Assembly: GCA_031272505.1 (NCBI GenBank)
Contig: JAISTQ010000059.1
Location: forward strand, 1-40,003
Reading direction: 5' to 3'
Source of the DNA: Propionibacteriaceae bacterium
GTDB taxonomy: Bacteria > Actinomycetota > Actinomycetes > Propionibacteriales > Propionibacteriaceae
Length of the DNA stretch: 40,003 bases
Each line of letters starts with the position of its first letter. The first letter of the stretch is position 1. The notes beneath the pieces are model-generated. The model worked only from the letters and a program-made list of their open reading frames with translations. It was not told the origin of the DNA and did no database searches. The position numbers were made by a program, and so were the translations under genes. Positions 979 through 5,849 of this stretch are shown here, in pieces.

Positions 979-1014
979 CGATAGTGGCCGGCGCGCGGGC
1001 ACCGGCCACTATCG
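979..1014 (-). terminator. Rho-independent terminator of the VOC-ending operon
   Basis: A perfect 13-bp stem (979-991 with 1002-1014; CGATAGTGGCCGG) encloses a 10-nt loop. It lies 10 bp beyond the stop codon of the last gene of the minus-strand operon. In that direction it is followed by a short TTTAA tract. Confidence 0.8.
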
Positions 1015-1024
1015 CGAGTAACAA

Positions 1025-1348
1025 CTACGCGAACTGGTAGTACTCGATTAGGACGCCGTCTTTAACAACGAACGCCATCTTGTCGCCGCCACCAGCGTCA
1101 ATAGGACCAAAGACGACGCGGTCGGCTTCGGCGACATGCTTCTCGATTTCGCTTACCTTGTAAGCGACGTGCAACTGGAAGTGCATCTCCTCGGGGAACG
1201 GGCCACCCTCCTCAAAGCGGAGGTACTCAAACTTGTGGTCGGTCTCGTCGGGGTTGTTCAGCCAGAGCTTCATGCCATCGGCATAGTTCATGCCAGGGCG
1301 CTTTTCGGTCACTGGGACACCGATGTGCCAGAGTTCCAGAATTGCCAT
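1025..1348 (-). CDS. VOC (glyoxalase-fold) small protein, last gene of the dha/lsrF-like operon
   Basis: The product is 107 residues, the size of one two-module VOC domain. Seen directly: an N-terminal LELWHIGVPV strand with His8, a central QLHV strand with a second His near residue 59, and a C-terminal VVFGPI...MAFVVKDGVLIEYYQF segment with the Glu expected as metal ligand in glyoxalase/epimerase-type VOC enzymes. An AAAGG Shine-Dalgarno lies 8 bases before ATG. It follows the DUF1097-like gene by 36 bp and is the last gene before a terminator. By position it could isomerise or epimerise an intermediate of the pathway, much as LsrG does in autoinducer-2 breakdown, although LsrG has a different fold. 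The family call is moderate and the substrate is unknown. Confidence 0.6.
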   Translation of the reverse strand: MAILELWHIGVPVTEKRPGMNYADGMKLWLNNPDETDHKFEYLRFEEGGPFPEEMHFQLHVAYKVSEIEKHVAEADRVVFGPIDAGGGDKMAFVVKDGVLIEYYQFA

Positions 1349-1384
1349 TTTTTGCCTTTCTTAGTGTTTAGGGGTGTTCAGTTT

Positions 1385-1969
1385 TTACGCGAACGGGGTG
1401 CCGATCAGGCCAGCCACGAAGACCGTCAGCCAACCAGCGGCCAAGCCGATGACGCAGTACACCAGCTCGCCGATGCCGGCGCTGGCGTAGTTCGCCCACT
1501 TCGAGGCCCCTTCGGGGAAGGAACCCGGAATCTGCGGGAAGTAGCTCATGATGCCAAAGAAGACGCCCGCGCCCACGAACAACGCCGGGACATACGCGAA
1601 CGGCCAGGGGGCGATCATCAAGAAGATGACGACCGTCACCAAGATCACGAGGGAGAGCGGGGTGGCCCAGAAGCCGAGCTTGCCGAACGCGCCGGCGAGT
1701 TCGAAGATGGCGATCGAGGCGATGATGGCGATGATGTAGGACACCAGCGCCGACAGGCCACCGTTGACCCCGCCTTCGTTCGGGCCGCCGATGAGCACCG
1801 AGCCGCCGAGGAAATAGATGGCCCATGCCTGGAAGGCGATCCAGCCGCCACCGGACTTGATTGGGCCGACGATCTTGGTCTTCACCAAGAGCTGATCAAT
1901 GACCTGCACCAGGGCGGCGATCACCGCGATGGGGAAAGCCCATTGAACTAAATGATTGAGTAGTTCCAT
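1385..1969 (-). CDS. DUF1097-like multi-pass membrane protein
   Basis: The product is 194 residues with about five hydrophobic helices: near 8-28, 45-58, 72-95, 100-135 and 163-190. A WIAFQAWAIYFLGG segment near 47-60 and YVPALFVGAGVFFG near 126-139 resemble the WAGF..YF..GG and FVPG.F.GA patterns of the DUF1097 (YcdZ-type) family. The ribosome binding site is weak (AAAGA). It sits between the LsrF-type gene and the VOC gene. No other transport gene is in the operon, so it is the obvious candidate for moving the substrate or product across the membrane; that is inference. The upstream intergenic gap (about 120 bp) contains a hairpin. Confidence 0.6.
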   Translation of the reverse strand: MELLNHLVQWAFPIAVIAALVQVIDQLLVKTKIVGPIKSGGGWIAFQAWAIYFLGGSVLIGGPNEGGVNGGLSALVSYIIAIIASIAIFELAGAFGKLGFWATPLSLVILVTVVIFLMIAPWPFAYVPALFVGAGVFFGIMSYFPQIPGSFPEGASKWANYASAGIGELVYCVIGLAAGWLTVFVAGLIGTPFA

Positions 1970-2040
1970 TTTGATTATCTTTCAGTGTTAGGGTCTCAGT
2001 TGTGTCGCTGGCAGGGCATCCGACCCAGCCAGGGATATGG

Positions 2041-2092
2041 GGGACGGACTGTCGGTCTTTGCGATTCCCGGGCAGTCCGTCCCATCTTTTTT
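2041..2092. terminator. Hairpin between the LsrF-type gene and the DUF1097-like gene
   Basis: GGGACGGACTG (2041-2051) pairs perfectly with CAGTCCGTCCC (2073-2083). On the plus strand it is followed by ATCTTTTTTT, a textbook terminator for antisense transcription. On the minus strand, the operon direction, no U-tract follows. There it may instead protect or process the mRNA, or attenuate partially, between the two genes. Confidence 0.5.
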
Positions 2093-2973
2093 TACGATTT
2101 CACGTCCAAGTAGAACTCGTAGGCCCGCTTGTCGGTGAACGCCTCATGGACGACCTTGCCCACGGCTTGCGCCATGGCGTTCGGATCGTCCGCCTGGAAG
2201 ATGTTGCGGCCCATATCGACGCCGCGGGCACCTTCGTTGATCGCCCGGTAGGCCATCGTCAACGCTTCGGATTCGGGAAGTTTCTTCCCGCCCGCGATCA
2301 CGATGGGCACTGGGCAGGCATGGGTGACATGCTCGAAGCCGTCACAGTAGTACGACTTCACCACATGCGCGCCATTCTCAGCCAGCATCCGGGTGGCTAA
2401 CAGGAAGAACTGCTCGGTACGGGCCATGTCCTTGCCGACGGCGACGACGCCGAGGGTCGGGATGCCGGCCTTGGTTCCGGCATCTACGGTCCGCGCCAGC
2501 AGTTCCAAAGAGCGGGCTTCGCCGGCCGACCCGATGAAGGTCTGCACGGCCACCGCCACCGCGTCCATCGCCACCGCGTTCTCCATGTCGATGGCAATGC
2601 CACCGCCCACCGTCATGTCCTCAAACAGGACGGAGGTGTCATAGGTGGAACGCAGGCAGATCGGCTTCTGGACGGTCGGCGGCACGCAGGTCTTGAAAGC
2701 CCCGCGCGTGCCCATCAGCACGTTGACGTAAGGAGCCAACGGAGGGATGACGAGGTCGAGCCGCTCCAGCCCGGAAGTCGGGCCCATGATGTAGCCGTGG
2801 TCGAACGCCAACATCACGGTGTTGCCCGAGGCAGGTGAGAACATCTGCGCGAGCCGATGCTGCATCCCCCAATCCAGATGGCCAGCCCCCTTGATGGGGA
2901 AACCGCCCGAATCTGGCGGCGGGACGCCCACGCCGTAATCCTTCGAGGCCTTGTTGCCGACAGCATCCGCCAT
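2092..2973 (-). CDS. LsrF-type class I aldolase/thiolase
   Basis: The product is 293 residues, close to E. coli LsrF (291), which it resembles along its whole length as I remember that protein. Matching blocks are KGAGHLDWGMQ (28-38), VMLAFDHGY with Asp58 (53-61), GPTSGLERLD (64-73), VKSYYCDGFE with the expected Schiff-base Lys206 (205-214), PVPIVIAGGKKLPE (221-234) and GVDMGRNIFQ (251-260). LsrF cleaves phosphorylated 3-hydroxypentane-2,4-dione with CoA in autoinducer-2 catabolism. Here the kinase upstream is DhaKL rather than LsrK and no LsrACDB transporter is present, so the substrate may be a different phosphorylated ketose or diketone. It starts 2 bp after dhaK. Confidence 0.85.
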   Translation of the reverse strand: MADAVGNKASKDYGVGVPPPDSGGFPIKGAGHLDWGMQHRLAQMFSPASGNTVMLAFDHGYIMGPTSGLERLDLVIPPLAPYVNVLMGTRGAFKTCVPPTVQKPICLRSTYDTSVLFEDMTVGGGIAIDMENAVAMDAVAVAVQTFIGSAGEARSLELLARTVDAGTKAGIPTLGVVAVGKDMARTEQFFLLATRMLAENGAHVVKSYYCDGFEHVTHACPVPIVIAGGKKLPESEALTMAYRAINEGARGVDMGRNIFQADDPNAMAQAVGKVVHEAFTDKRAYEFYLDVKS

Positions 2974-2975
2974 GA

Positions 2976-3980
2976 CTACACCTGCTTGTAATACGGGGTG
3001 TTGCAGGGCGCCTTCCAGTAGTGCAGCAGCTCGTCATCCATGCGGGCGACGAAGAGCTGGAAGCCAGCCTGCTCCTGGACGGTGAGCATCTCGCCGACGA
3101 AGTTGGCGACGATCTCGATGTTCTTGCCAGCCAGATACTGCACGCAGCGCCGGTAGATCACCAGCAGCTCCATCAGCGTGGTGGCGCCGGAGCCGTTCAG
3201 GATCAGCATGATCTTCTCGCCGTCCTGGATGTCCAGGTCGTTGAGCAGGCCCTGCACCATGATGTCGGCGGTCTCATCGGCGGACTTCATCGGCTGACGG
3301 CCACCGCCGCCTTCACCGTGCTGCCCCATGCCGATCTCCATGTCGTCATCGCCCAGATCGCCGAACGGCATCCCGGTCTGCGGGTGCGTGGCGGTGCGGA
3401 CGGCGACGGCCAGGGTGGCCATGTTGTCAGCGAAACGCTGGGCCAATGCGGCGACCTCTTCGAGGGACTTGCCCTCAGCGGCGGCAGCGCCGGCGATCTT
3501 GTACAGCGGGACGCAGCCGACCAGGCCGCGGCGGTCGTCAGAGTTCGAGCGCGGCGCGTTCGAGACGTCTTCCTGGGTGACCACCTTGATGCACTTGACG
3601 CCGGGCTCGTTTTCGAGCGTCCGCATCGTCAATTTGCCGGTGATCATGTCGCCAGCGTGGTTCAGCACGACGTAGAGGACGCCTTTGCCCTTCTCCGCCA
3701 GCTTGATGGCATCCACGCAGGCTTCGGGGCCGGGGGCGGCGAAAATGTCGCCGACGACCGAGATGTCGATCATGCCCTCACCGACGAACCCCGACAGCGC
3801 CGGCTCATGCCCGGCTCCGCCCTGGGTGACGATGGTGACGCGATCTGCGCTGGCCAGCTTCTTGTTGATGACCTTGTTGTCCGGGCCGAGCTCGACGAGG
3901 TCCTGATGCGCGAGGGCGAGGCCTTCGAGCACTTCGGCGGTCAAGTTGGCTGGATCATTGATGAACTTCTTCATCTTCAT
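2976..3980 (-). CDS. dhaK: Dihydroxyacetone kinase subunit DhaK-like
   Basis: The product is 334 residues. DhaK binds its substrate covalently as a hemiaminal on a histidine; that residue is visible as His221 in GMGQHGEGG. GGAGHEPALSGFVGEGM (54-70), VGDIFAAPGP (77-84) and the NHAGD loop with Asp111 (108-111) form the substrate site. The AAGGAGG ribosome binding site is 9 bases before the first ATG. The gene pairs with dhaL. No dhaM (phosphohistidine donor) lies nearby, so ATP-dependent phosphorylation, or a donor encoded elsewhere, is possible. Actinobacterial DhaKL-like enzymes are known to act on erythrulose as well as dihydroxyacetone, so the substrate cannot be fixed. An LsrF-type enzyme next door argues for a 4-5 carbon compound. 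Confidence 0.9.
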   Translation of the reverse strand: MKMKKFINDPANLTAEVLEGLALAHQDLVELGPDNKVINKKLASADRVTIVTQGGAGHEPALSGFVGEGMIDISVVGDIFAAPGPEACVDAIKLAEKGKGVLYVVLNHAGDMITGKLTMRTLENEPGVKCIKVVTQEDVSNAPRSNSDDRRGLVGCVPLYKIAGAAAAEGKSLEEVAALAQRFADNMATLAVAVRTATHPQTGMPFGDLGDDDMEIGMGQHGEGGGGRQPMKSADETADIMVQGLLNDLDIQDGEKIMLILNGSGATTLMELLVIYRRCVQYLAGKNIEIVANFVGEMLTVQEQAGFQLFVARMDDELLHYWKAPCNTPYYKQV

Positions 3981-4000
3981 TAGCTAGAACCTCCTTGTTT

Positions 4001-4031
4001 GTTCTTGGATCTGTGTTCGTTCTTGGGTCTG
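4001..4031. repeat. 18-bp period direct repeat in the dhaL-dhaK gap
   Basis: GTTCTTGGATCTG (4001-4013) recurs as GTTCTTGGGTCTG at 4019-4031, just upstream of the dhaK ribosome binding site. It is a candidate binding or processing site; no function is visible. Confidence 0.4.
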
Positions 4032-4044
4032 AATATCGCAGGAA

Positions 4045-4677
4045 TTAAGTTGTGTGCGGTGCTCCCAGGCTCAGCCCCTGGAAAAACGCGGCGGTGCTCA
4101 TCGCACCGGCGTCGGGGGTGCCGAGCGTCCGTTCTCCGTATACCCGCGCCCTTCCGAAATGCGAAACCATCTCGGTGGTGGCTTGGGCTCCGGCGGTGGC
4201 GGCTGCTGCGGCAACCGCCAGTATCTCGGGGATGTCGCCTTCGCAGTCTTCCGCGGCTGCGACGGCGGGTAACAATGCGTCCATCATCGTTTTTTCGCCC
4301 ACTTGGGCCTTGGTGACGGATTGCATCGCGGCCCGGCTGCCGACGAACATCGCCTTCAGCAGCCCGGCGTCAATCTCCTCGGTTTCGGCGTCCAGCGGAT
4401 CACTCAACCCCTCCACGAGCATTCCGTAGAGCGGCCCGGCCGAACCGCCGCCGACCCCCATCACCGCGCTGGACAGGCTTTTCAAGAACGGCTTGAAGGG
4501 CTGGTCCGTCCAGGCTTCGACTGCTTGGCGGAAGGTCTTGGCGATTTTGCCGATGGTGATGCCGTGGTCGCCGTCACCGAAGGTGGAATCGATTTCGTTG
4601 TAGGTGGGTACGTTCTCTTCCCAGGTGTCTGCCACGGAGAGCAGGAGAAGGCCGAACCCCTTCCTGTCTAGTAACAT
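4045..4677 (-). CDS. dhaL: Dihydroxyacetone kinase subunit DhaL-like
   Basis: The product is 210 residues, the usual DhaL length. The open frame continues upstream to 4752, but ATG 4677 is chosen because GGAGG sits 6 bases before it and the family begins here. The nucleotide/Mg2+ motif DSTFGDGDHG gives Asp30, Asp35 and Asp37. GVGGGSAGPLYG is the glycine loop, and FGRARVYGERTLGTPDAGA is the C-terminal signature. DhaL carries the ADP/ATP and phosphorylates the substrate held by DhaK. It is the first gene of the operon, divergent from the SorC-type regulator. Confidence 0.9.
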   Translation of the reverse strand: MLLDRKGFGLLLLSVADTWEENVPTYNEIDSTFGDGDHGITIGKIAKTFRQAVEAWTDQPFKPFLKSLSSAVMGVGGGSAGPLYGMLVEGLSDPLDAETEEIDAGLLKAMFVGSRAAMQSVTKAQVGEKTMMDALLPAVAAAEDCEGDIPEILAVAAAAATAGAQATTEMVSHFGRARVYGERTLGTPDAGAMSTAAFFQGLSLGAPHTT

Positions 4678-4783
4678 TAGTAACCTCCATTGGCTACAGC
4701 GGTACATTCCGTCTACAAGCCTAAACACTGGCCGAACCAAAGAAAAAAGCACATTTGTTACAGTTTTTCGACCCCTCTGGCGG

Positions 4784-4798
4784 GTTTGAGGCTCAAAC
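4784..4798. promoter_or_regulatory. Perfect palindrome, likely operator of the SorC-type regulator
   Basis: GTTTGAGGCTCAAAC has two 7-bp arms around one base. It sits 4 bp upstream of the regulator's -10 box, in the divergent 137-bp region shared with dhaL. Its position fits autoregulation and control of the operon; this is inferred from layout only. Confidence 0.55.
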
Positions 4799-4802
4799 GT
4801 GC

Positions 4803-4808
4803 TAGTAT
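4803..4808 (+). promoter_or_regulatory. -10 box of a leaderless promoter (SorC-type regulator)
   Basis: TAGTAT is followed by exactly 6 bases and then GTG 4815. No ribosome binding site precedes that GTG, so transcription and translation probably start together. Confidence 0.65.
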
Positions 4809-4814
4809 CGCCGG

Positions 4815-5774
4815 GTGCGAGACGCCCGCTTGAAGCGATTGGAAGCGGTGGCCCGGCTCTACTACGAACAGGATTTGAGCCAGGAGGCCATCGCCCGTCG
4901 GCTGCGCATTTCCCGTCCGTACGTCTCCCGGATGCTCTCCCAGGCGAAGGAGGCGGGCATCGTCAAGATCAGCATCCTCTCCCAGGCGCCGCCGGACGAG
5001 GTGGTGGAGGCGGACGTCCGGGAAACCTTCCAACTCAACAGCGTCGCTTTGGTCGAAGACGGGCCGCAGGACAGCGTCACCAACGAGTCGCTGGGCAAGG
5101 CCGCGCTGCAGTTGATCGACGCCATCGGCGGCGGACGGCTGGGGCTGGGCTGGGGGAATGTGATTGGCACCTTGGTCGCCGGGCTGGAGCGTCGTCCGTC
5201 ATTCCCCTCAAAGGTGACGGACGTGACGCCGCTGGTCGGCAATCGCGGCATCCCGATCCGGCACTACCACTCGAACGAGAACGCCCGCATTGCCGCCACC
5301 CAACTCCAAGCCCAGGCGCACTACCTGCACGCCCCCTCGCTGGCGGAGACGAAGCACGAGCTGGATCTGCTGCGGCAGACCGAGCACTACAAGGCGGTGC
5401 TGGCCGAATGGCAGCAGTTGGACGTCGCGCTGGTGAACATCGGGAACCACCCGTCCACCCCGGACTTCGCCACCGCCGCCCGCTACGGGAACCTGCTCAC
5501 CCAGCGGCACGCGGTGGGCCGGCTGATCGCCTATTACTACGACGTCTTCGGGGAGATCATCCACTCCGAGCAGGATTACGCCATCCAGATCCCGCTGGAG
5601 ATCCTGGGCGCCGTCCCGCGGGTGATCGGGATCGTGAGCGCGAACGTCAGCACCGACGCTTTGATGGGGGCGCTGCGCACCGGGCAACTGACTGACATCG
5701 TCGTCCACCAATCTCTGATGGCTTCGGTGATGTCGCTGGCGGCCGCCGAAGGTGTGGCGGCGGACGCCGGGTGA
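4815..5774 (+). CDS. SorC/DeoR (LsrR-type) sugar-binding transcriptional regulator
   Basis: The product is 319 residues, the usual length (LsrR 317). The N-terminus carries a helix-turn-helix: VARLYYEQDLSQEAIARRL (about 12-30), then ISRPYVSRMLSQAKEAGIV (32-50). A C-terminal phosphosugar-binding domain follows (GLGWGNVIGTLVAGL, VALVNIGNHPSTPDF), with family-like spacing of glycine loops. SorC-family regulators bind phosphorylated sugars, LsrR binding phospho-AI-2, and release DNA. Being divergent from a kinase-led operon fits sensing of the DhaKL product. The start is GTG at a leaderless promoter, with a palindrome immediately upstream. Confidence 0.85.
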   Translation: MRDARLKRLEAVARLYYEQDLSQEAIARRLRISRPYVSRMLSQAKEAGIVKISILSQAPPDEVVEADVRETFQLNSVALVEDGPQDSVTNESLGKAALQLIDAIGGGRLGLGWGNVIGTLVAGLERRPSFPSKVTDVTPLVGNRGIPIRHYHSNENARIAATQLQAQAHYLHAPSLAETKHELDLLRQTEHYKAVLAEWQQLDVALVNIGNHPSTPDFATAARYGNLLTQRHAVGRLIAYYYDVFGEIIHSEQDYAIQIPLEILGAVPRVIGIVSANVSTDALMGALRTGQLTDIVVHQSLMASVMSLAAAEGVAADAG

Positions 5775-5777
5775 GTG

Positions 5778-5849
5778 AGCCTCCAATCGGATTCGAACCG
5801 ATGACCTTCCGCTTACAAGGCGGGAGCTCTACCACTGAGCTATAGAGGC
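5778..5849 (-). tRNA. tRNA-Thr (anticodon UGU)
   Basis: A 72-nt cloverleaf can be folded by eye. The acceptor stem is GCCTCTA/TGGAGGC, the D-stem GCTC/GAGC, the anticodon loop CTTGTAA (UGU) and the T-arm ATCGG-TTCGAAT-CCGAT, with discriminator U. The anticodon stem has one C-A mismatch at its outer pair. CCA is not encoded. It lies 12 bp after the DedA-family gene on the same strand and 3 bp from the convergent regulator stop, so it is probably processed from the longer transcript or has a promoter within that gene. Confidence 0.93.

Follow-up and report, generated by a model that had tools for sequence, protein, structure and literature searches.

The window analysed here, the first 40,003 nucleotides of contig JAISTQ010000059.1 of a Propionibacteriaceae bacterium (GCA_031272505.1), contains genes for the two subunits of a dihydroxyacetone-kinase-type enzyme (DhaL and DhaK), an LsrF-type protein, a DUF1097-like membrane protein and a small VOC-fold protein. 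We lean towards reading this operon as encoding the breakdown of a small ketose, probably of four to six carbons, in which the VOC protein would epimerise or isomerise the sugar, DhaKL would phosphorylate it at C1 and the LsrF-type enzyme would split the product into dihydroxyacetone phosphate (DHAP) and an aldehyde. The original prediction, made from the DNA alone, had described the layout as dhaL-dhaK-lsrF-like-DUF1097-VOC on one strand, divergent from a regulator of the SorC/LsrR family; this was confirmed (minus strand, 4677-1025, against 4815-5774), and, of the two alternatives it offered, the one of a so far undescribed pathway acting on a small ketose fits the results best. What the data show is a conserved gene set with conserved residues, a distinct DhaK subfamily and the exchange of the aldolase; the nature of the substrate, phosphorylation at C1, the sequence of the reactions, uptake and control are our inference.

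A scan for the LsrF protein, with one genome per species, returned 335 relatives. The closest 80 loci, picked by LsrF similarity regardless of their neighbours, were examined, and denominators for each gene are the loci among the 80 whose contig reaches far enough. LsrF was accompanied by DhaK in 73/73 loci, DhaL in 70/70 and the VOC protein in 68/68, and a SorC gene was present in 43 of 51. DUF1097 was less frequent (16/68), and none of the remaining gene clusters turned up in more than 7 loci. By record title, the carriers are Propionibacteriaceae, Bifidobacteriaceae, many Oscillospiraceae and other Clostridia, Synergistales and Deltaproteobacteria, which we take, partly from genus names, to be mostly gut bacteria. 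A search with a VOC profile in two further genome samples, which partly overlap the genomes of the 80 loci, gave matches in 5/391 and 14/300 genomes at 20 places, not all of them in the operon; LsrF lay at most 1.5 kb from the match in 17 of the 20. Four distant VOC proteins (L150-L153) were all accompanied by DhaL, DhaK, LsrF and SorC, L151-L153 reading DhaL-VOC-DhaK-LsrF, with SorC divergent, and L150 reading DhaL-DhaK-LsrF-VOC-SorC. The Bacteroidota, covered through two plasmid records only, gave DUF1097-VOC-DhaK-DhaL-LsrF in Aureibacter tunicatorum and VOC-DhaK-DhaL-LsrF in Parabacteroides distasonis. The claim that these genes belong together is supported across phyla and in other gene orders, with DUF1097 as an optional part.

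The operons on the Aureibacter and Parabacteroides plasmids are embedded in a similar cluster (L172 8293-14876, L175 58-6608, L179 11235-16001), with a SUMF1-type protein of about 1300 amino acids, genes for cytochrome c or for CcsA/ResB (cytochrome c assembly) and Mala_s_1-like propellers. The SUMF1-type protein of Parabacteroides carries SUMF1, HZS_alpha and NPCBM domains, and a RidA-like protein is found in the Aureibacter cluster.

Overall the operon recurs patchily, in Oscillospiraceae and other Clostridia, Synergistales, Deltaproteobacteria, Bacteroidota and Actinomycetota. In an actinobacterial sample, LsrF exceeded its cut-off in 27/296 genomes, and no DhaK was found with LsrF in the stretches read, some of them short, of the 26 genomes other than that of the window. 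The LsrF form of the operon is rare in Actinomycetota.

In DhaK, a conserved histidine binds the keto group of the substrate. The window DhaK has a Dak1 domain and keeps this histidine in its HGE motif, with a score of 290.7, below the DhaK equivalog cut-off of 406.25. All 72 operon DhaKs compared (from 72 of the 80 loci, with 8 cut or split proteins omitted and the window not counted) carry LN(H/Y)AGD and QHGEGGG, where other DhaKs have (K/N)NYTGD-like and IHGEPG motifs. The same division appears among 31 DhaK loci, a part of the Dak1 matches, from operon-bearing genomes: QHGEGGG is found in 21/21 DhaKs adjacent to LsrF, which overlap the 72, and IHGEPG or VHGEPG in 10/10 without LsrF. The window genome itself has two further DhaKs of the usual IHGEPG type, and operon DhaKs differ from both in many columns. 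Six distant operon DhaKs (L150-L153, Aureibacter, Parabacteroides) all have QHGEGGG, with LNHAGD in five and LNHSGD in one. Judged by these motifs, the operon DhaKs form a subfamily of their own whose active-site motif is altered; since the histidine is kept and the pocket is altered, dihydroxyacetone is probably not the main substrate. The DhaK-DhaL variant would bind the keto group of the ketose via the conserved histidine and phosphorylate the adjacent CH2OH, giving a ketose-1-phosphate. No dhaM was seen in the operon, though no search aimed at it was made. A partial second DhaK-like gene, 58% identical to the window DhaK, lies in L153 (3-272) near glycerol kinase and corrinoid-methyltransferase-like genes.

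The nature of the cleavage step is suggested by operons in which LsrF is exchanged. The VOC profile matched in 14/296 genomes of the actinobacterial sample; besides the window genome, four genomes of one family gave strong matches (E below 1e-48), and all four lack an LsrF above cut-off. Three of them (L260-L262) have the order DhaL-DhaK-class II F_bP_aldolase-VOC, with gaps between DhaK and aldolase of 8, 9 and about 120-130 bases by gene calls, and the fourth (L263, genome G291) has class II aldolase-DhaL-DhaK-VOC. Their DhaKs carry LN(H/Y)AGD and QHGE(E/G)GG. The aldolases (PF01116, 268-280 bits) match ketose, tagatose and fructose bisphosphate aldolases, mostly under the curated cut-offs for single subfamilies. 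The aldolase of L263 is 50% identical to one near an FGGY kinase-VOC-SDR-SorC unit (L169) and 33-41% identical to the L260 type; therefore two lineages of class II aldolase appear to occur in this setting. Of the ten weaker actinobacterial VOC places, nine were read (L264-L272), and the stretches fetched for them contain no match to DhaK or LsrF. Class II ketose-phosphate aldolases split ketose phosphates into DHAP plus an aldehyde; CoA thiolysis is not known for this family. Because such an enzyme stands in for LsrF, the reaction common to both forms of the operon is more likely aldol cleavage than CoA thiolysis, and aldol cleavage would be the simplest such reaction.

The LsrF-type protein of the window would then act as a class I aldolase, splitting the ketose-1-phosphate into DHAP and an aldehyde. 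Passages of PMC2728841 name the catalytic lysine and the phosphate ligands of Escherichia coli LsrF. In our alignment of the window protein and 77 from the 80 loci (three called short were omitted), K203, D57, H58, R254, G226, G227 and G253 of E. coli LsrF are conserved in 78/78. The NCBIfam model matched by the window protein is named '3-hydroxy-5-phosphonooxypentane-2,4-dione thiolase', a name that points to the autoinducer-2 (AI-2) pathway; on the operon enzyme this label is probably misleading. The family also occurs in other sugar settings, so LsrF as proof of AI-2 was rejected. A Sagittula plasmid (L173 2784-9081) has an LsrF 72% identical to that of E. coli in a polyol-like cluster with an ABC transporter, a SorC-type regulator, and GlpD-like, FGGY kinase and class II aldolase/adducin genes. 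Actinobacterial LsrF-type proteins in L118, L123, L124 and L134, mostly with a short N-terminus, also exceed the AI-2 thiolase cut-off, and they adjoin a gene of about 340 codons for a Zn-dependent alcohol dehydrogenase-like protein (identified by scan in L118 and by like N-termini in the other three). In L117 (by scan) and L116 (by look), members of the family lie beside a RhaD-type aldolase/dehydrogenase.

The VOC protein is predicted to have a metal-dependent glyoxalase/epimerase-type fold; its model shows four candidate metal ligands, and an alignment of 36 of the 80 VOC proteins was made. The best Foldseek match is methylmalonyl-CoA epimerase (E 7.5e-4), which does not exclude families outside that listing. 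As a metalloenzyme it may epimerise or isomerise the ketose, before or after phosphorylation. The original prediction gave it the place of the isomerase LsrG, which fits the modelled fold and its position directly after LsrF in most operons read, as for LsrG in E. coli; in the window, DUF1097 intervenes. Relatives are also found elsewhere. One in genome G940, 55% identical to the window protein (L161/L244; L244 8983-9306), has no DhaK or LsrF in 16 kb of that genome. Another, in L169 (1350-9992), is flanked by an FGGY kinase and an SDR and accompanied by a SorC-type regulator; opposite it lies a galactitol-type phosphotransferase system (PTS) cluster with a class II aldolase. More distant ones lie beside a levoglucosan-dehydrogenase-like gene (L170, 28% identity) and beside genes for an AP-endonuclease-type TIM protein and a Gfo/Idh/MocA oxidoreductase (L272, 26%).

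The DUF1097-like protein gives a helical model (pLDDT 70) and is 42% identical to an Aureibacter homologue annotated DUF1097. Its assignment as the transporter is weakened by its absence from 52/68 operons, though it recurs in the operon of the bacteroidote Aureibacter. At least two operons (L050, L035) have RbsABC-type genes for sugar transport next to them; uptake may depend on the DUF1097-like protein in some genomes and on RbsABC-type transporters or unlinked systems in others. The regulator aligns near full length to SorC, DeoR and LsrR structures (PDB 2w48, E 8e-31; LsrR 4go1, E 4e-16); its sugar-binding domain exceeds the cut-off, and several helix-turn-helix models were matched, each below its own. 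It may sense a phosphorylated intermediate and control the genes. In 56 gaps between SorC and DhaL, the dyads GCCGC-GCGGC and GTTAC-N4-GTAAC were found in 8 and 7 regions, respectively (shuffle maximum 3), counts that kinship of the loci may explain; neither is present in the window gap. The idea of one operator common to the loci was set aside.

The features of the window operon are collected in Table 1. The start of dhaL is an ATG at 4677 preceded by GGAGG, and its translation contains GDGDHG. Only two bases separate dhaK from the lsrF-type gene, which makes their co-transcription likely. The terminator scan did not list the inverted repeat beyond the VOC gene, and the promoter and terminator scan gave no excess over shuffles.

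Table 1. Genes and other features of the operon region in the window.
Feature	Position	Strand	Description
dhaL	4045..4677	-	Phosphoryl-transfer (nucleotide-binding) subunit, dihydroxyacetone-kinase type; about 210 amino acids; Dak2 136 bits
dhaK	2976..3980	-	Substrate subunit, LNHAGD + QHGEGGG subfamily; Dak1 329.9 bits
lsrF-type gene	2092..2973	-	Class I aldolase/thiolase family; PRK08227 378.8 bits, cut-off 297
DUF1097-like membrane protein	1385..1969	-	Possible permease, optional part; Pfam PF06496 21.2 bits, gathering cut-off 24.6
VOC-fold protein	1025..1348	-	107 amino acids; putative metal-dependent ketose(-phosphate) epimerase/isomerase
SorC/DeoR-family sugar-binding regulator	4815..5774	+	Divergent; PF04198 107.3 bits
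Divergent intergenic region	4678..4814		Presumed promoter/operator
13-bp perfect inverted repeat	979-991 / 1002-1014	-	Just 3' of VOC gene; possible transcript end, no T run
tRNA-Thr	5777-5849	-	After SorC regulator gene

Some findings weigh on the other side: only a single Dak1 match was found in 38/50 operon genomes, which counts against the view that dihydroxyacetone is not the main substrate, and the LsrF tree can be read in favour of an AI-2-like substrate. Of the 43 LsrF-type rows in this tree, 17 come from the window and the 80 loci; two Gram-positive lsr operons have LsrFs that fall with or inside the DhaK-linked group. Placing all four lsr LsrFs into one clade was rejected (p-AU 0.0001); a single clade of all DhaK-linked LsrFs was not (p-AU 0.077, or 0.219 without the two Bacteroidota). 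This grouping is the best support for a substrate like AI-2. The Gram-positive lsr operons (L171 1-9505, from a Lacticaseibacillus paracasei plasmid, and L128 and L241, from an actinobacterium) have lsrK, lsrR, lsrACDB and lsrF, and no match to lsrG or VOC was found in the stretches read.

It is rather unlikely, on the whole, that the operon catabolises AI-2 or DPD (4,5-dihydroxy-2,3-pentanedione) with enzymes from other families, for scavenging or quenching the AI-2 of other cells. The VOC protein would convert DPD to 3,5-dihydroxypentane-2,4-dione, DhaKL would phosphorylate the hydroxyketone end, as in normal DhaK chemistry, and LsrF would release acetyl-CoA and DHAP by thiolysis. In addition to the tree, this would agree with an LsrF above the curated cut-off with the ligand and catalytic residues of E. 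coli LsrF, with the lsrG-like position of the VOC gene in most operons, with LuxS in the window genome and with an LsrB-like protein in the genome of the nearest relative, L004 (160.8 bits, cut-off 384). However, luxS was found in 12/49 operon genomes and not in the other 37; judging by their titles, many of the 49 come from metagenomes, so that some assemblies could be incomplete. An AI-2 substrate would thus be, for the most part, the AI-2 of other cells. LsrB exceeded its cut-off in 0/50 operon genomes, the L004 score being the best; this search counts for little, since the E. coli control genome, which may lack the lsr operon, matched the LsrF and LsrB models below cut-off only. The occurrence of LsrF relatives in other sugar clusters, such as that of Sagittula, and the replacement of LsrF by a class II aldolase also speak against it, since thiolysis of a phospho-diketone does not explain the exchange. 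A dedicated AI-2 system, as in the first interpretation, is therefore not supported, and membership in the whole Lsr system was rejected: the FGGY kinase LsrK is not in the unit, where the window and 73/73 loci have DhaKL (an FGGY gene near L006 is separate); no LsrB or LsrACD transporter is found in the window operon; and LsrG is replaced by a protein modelled with a VOC fold. That gut anaerobes, mostly without luxS in the sample, eat AI-2 convergently, with the VOC protein isomerising DPD, a re-tooled DhaKL phosphorylating it and the product being split by LsrF or a class II enzyme, seems quite unlikely. If true, LsrF would be the one lsr enzyme that was kept, and AI-2 would be removed in the gut more widely than counts of lsr operons imply.

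Plain use of dihydroxyacetone or glycerol is improbable: DhaKL would make DHAP, LsrF would pass it on as a class I aldolase and the VOC protein would be a methylglyoxal glyoxalase, as the single Dak1 matches and a glycerol dehydrogenase gene just upstream in L006 might suggest. No counterpart of this dehydrogenase was seen in the other loci, the active-site motif is unlike that of canonical dihydroxyacetone kinases in 72/72, the window genome has its two usual DhaKs besides, and the VOC protein is kept in 68/68 loci, with a relative beside an FGGY kinase. The least probable reading is that the operon degrades a keto-sugar that is branched or oxidised, for example a 3-keto-sugar product, with the VOC protein acting on the oxidised sugar: the neighbours of the VOC relatives in L170 and L272 fit it and the cytochrome c genes around the Bacteroidota operons hint that an oxidised compound feeds the operon there, but those two VOC proteins are distant and without DhaK or LsrF, and no oxidoreductase gene recurs beside the operon loci.

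Because the operon aldolase takes the NCBIfam name of an AI-2 thiolase, genomes that carry it may be miscounted as AI-2 processors. The operon also marks out a subfamily of DhaK that can be recognised by its signature, together with a VOC family whose role is likely to lie in sugar metabolism. No paper describing this gene set was found in the open-access full-text library to which the search was confined, and passages of PMC2728841, PMC8016206, PMC7828210, PMC12780249 and PMC10733421 do not describe it. The logic of kinase, epimerase and DHAP aldolase is known already; within the open-access literature searched, this combination of families looks undescribed.

The operon resembles the E. coli lsr operon (LsrK, LsrR, LsrACDB, LsrF, LsrG) in its LsrF family, a small isomerase-type protein downstream, a regulator of the same superfamily and a kinase. 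It differs in having DhaKL and not an FGGY kinase, a VOC fold and not LsrG, no LsrACDB in the unit and an LsrF for which a class II aldolase can substitute. With the PTS- and ATP-dependent dihydroxyacetone kinases it shares both subunits and the histidine region that serves in ketone binding, whereas its pocket motifs are changed, its score is below the equivalog level and it is accompanied by a VOC protein and an aldolase wherever the contig reached. In the tetritol pathway of Mycolicibacterium smegmatis, as given in passages of PMC10733421 and PMC12780249, the L-erythrulose 1-kinase LerK begins a route to erythrose-4-phosphate via isomerases and not via an aldolase. The likeness lies in a kinase that acts, or in our operon would act, at C1 of a small ketose. 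LerK is presumably a member of the DhaK family, and to our knowledge its pathway has no VOC or LsrF protein. In pathways of the fucose, rhamnose and ribulose type, a kinase converts a ketose to a ketose-1-phosphate and a DHAP aldolase splits it into DHAP and an aldehyde; the proposed pathway would have this overall logic in common with them, whereas the kinase, isomerase and aldolase of the operon come from other families.

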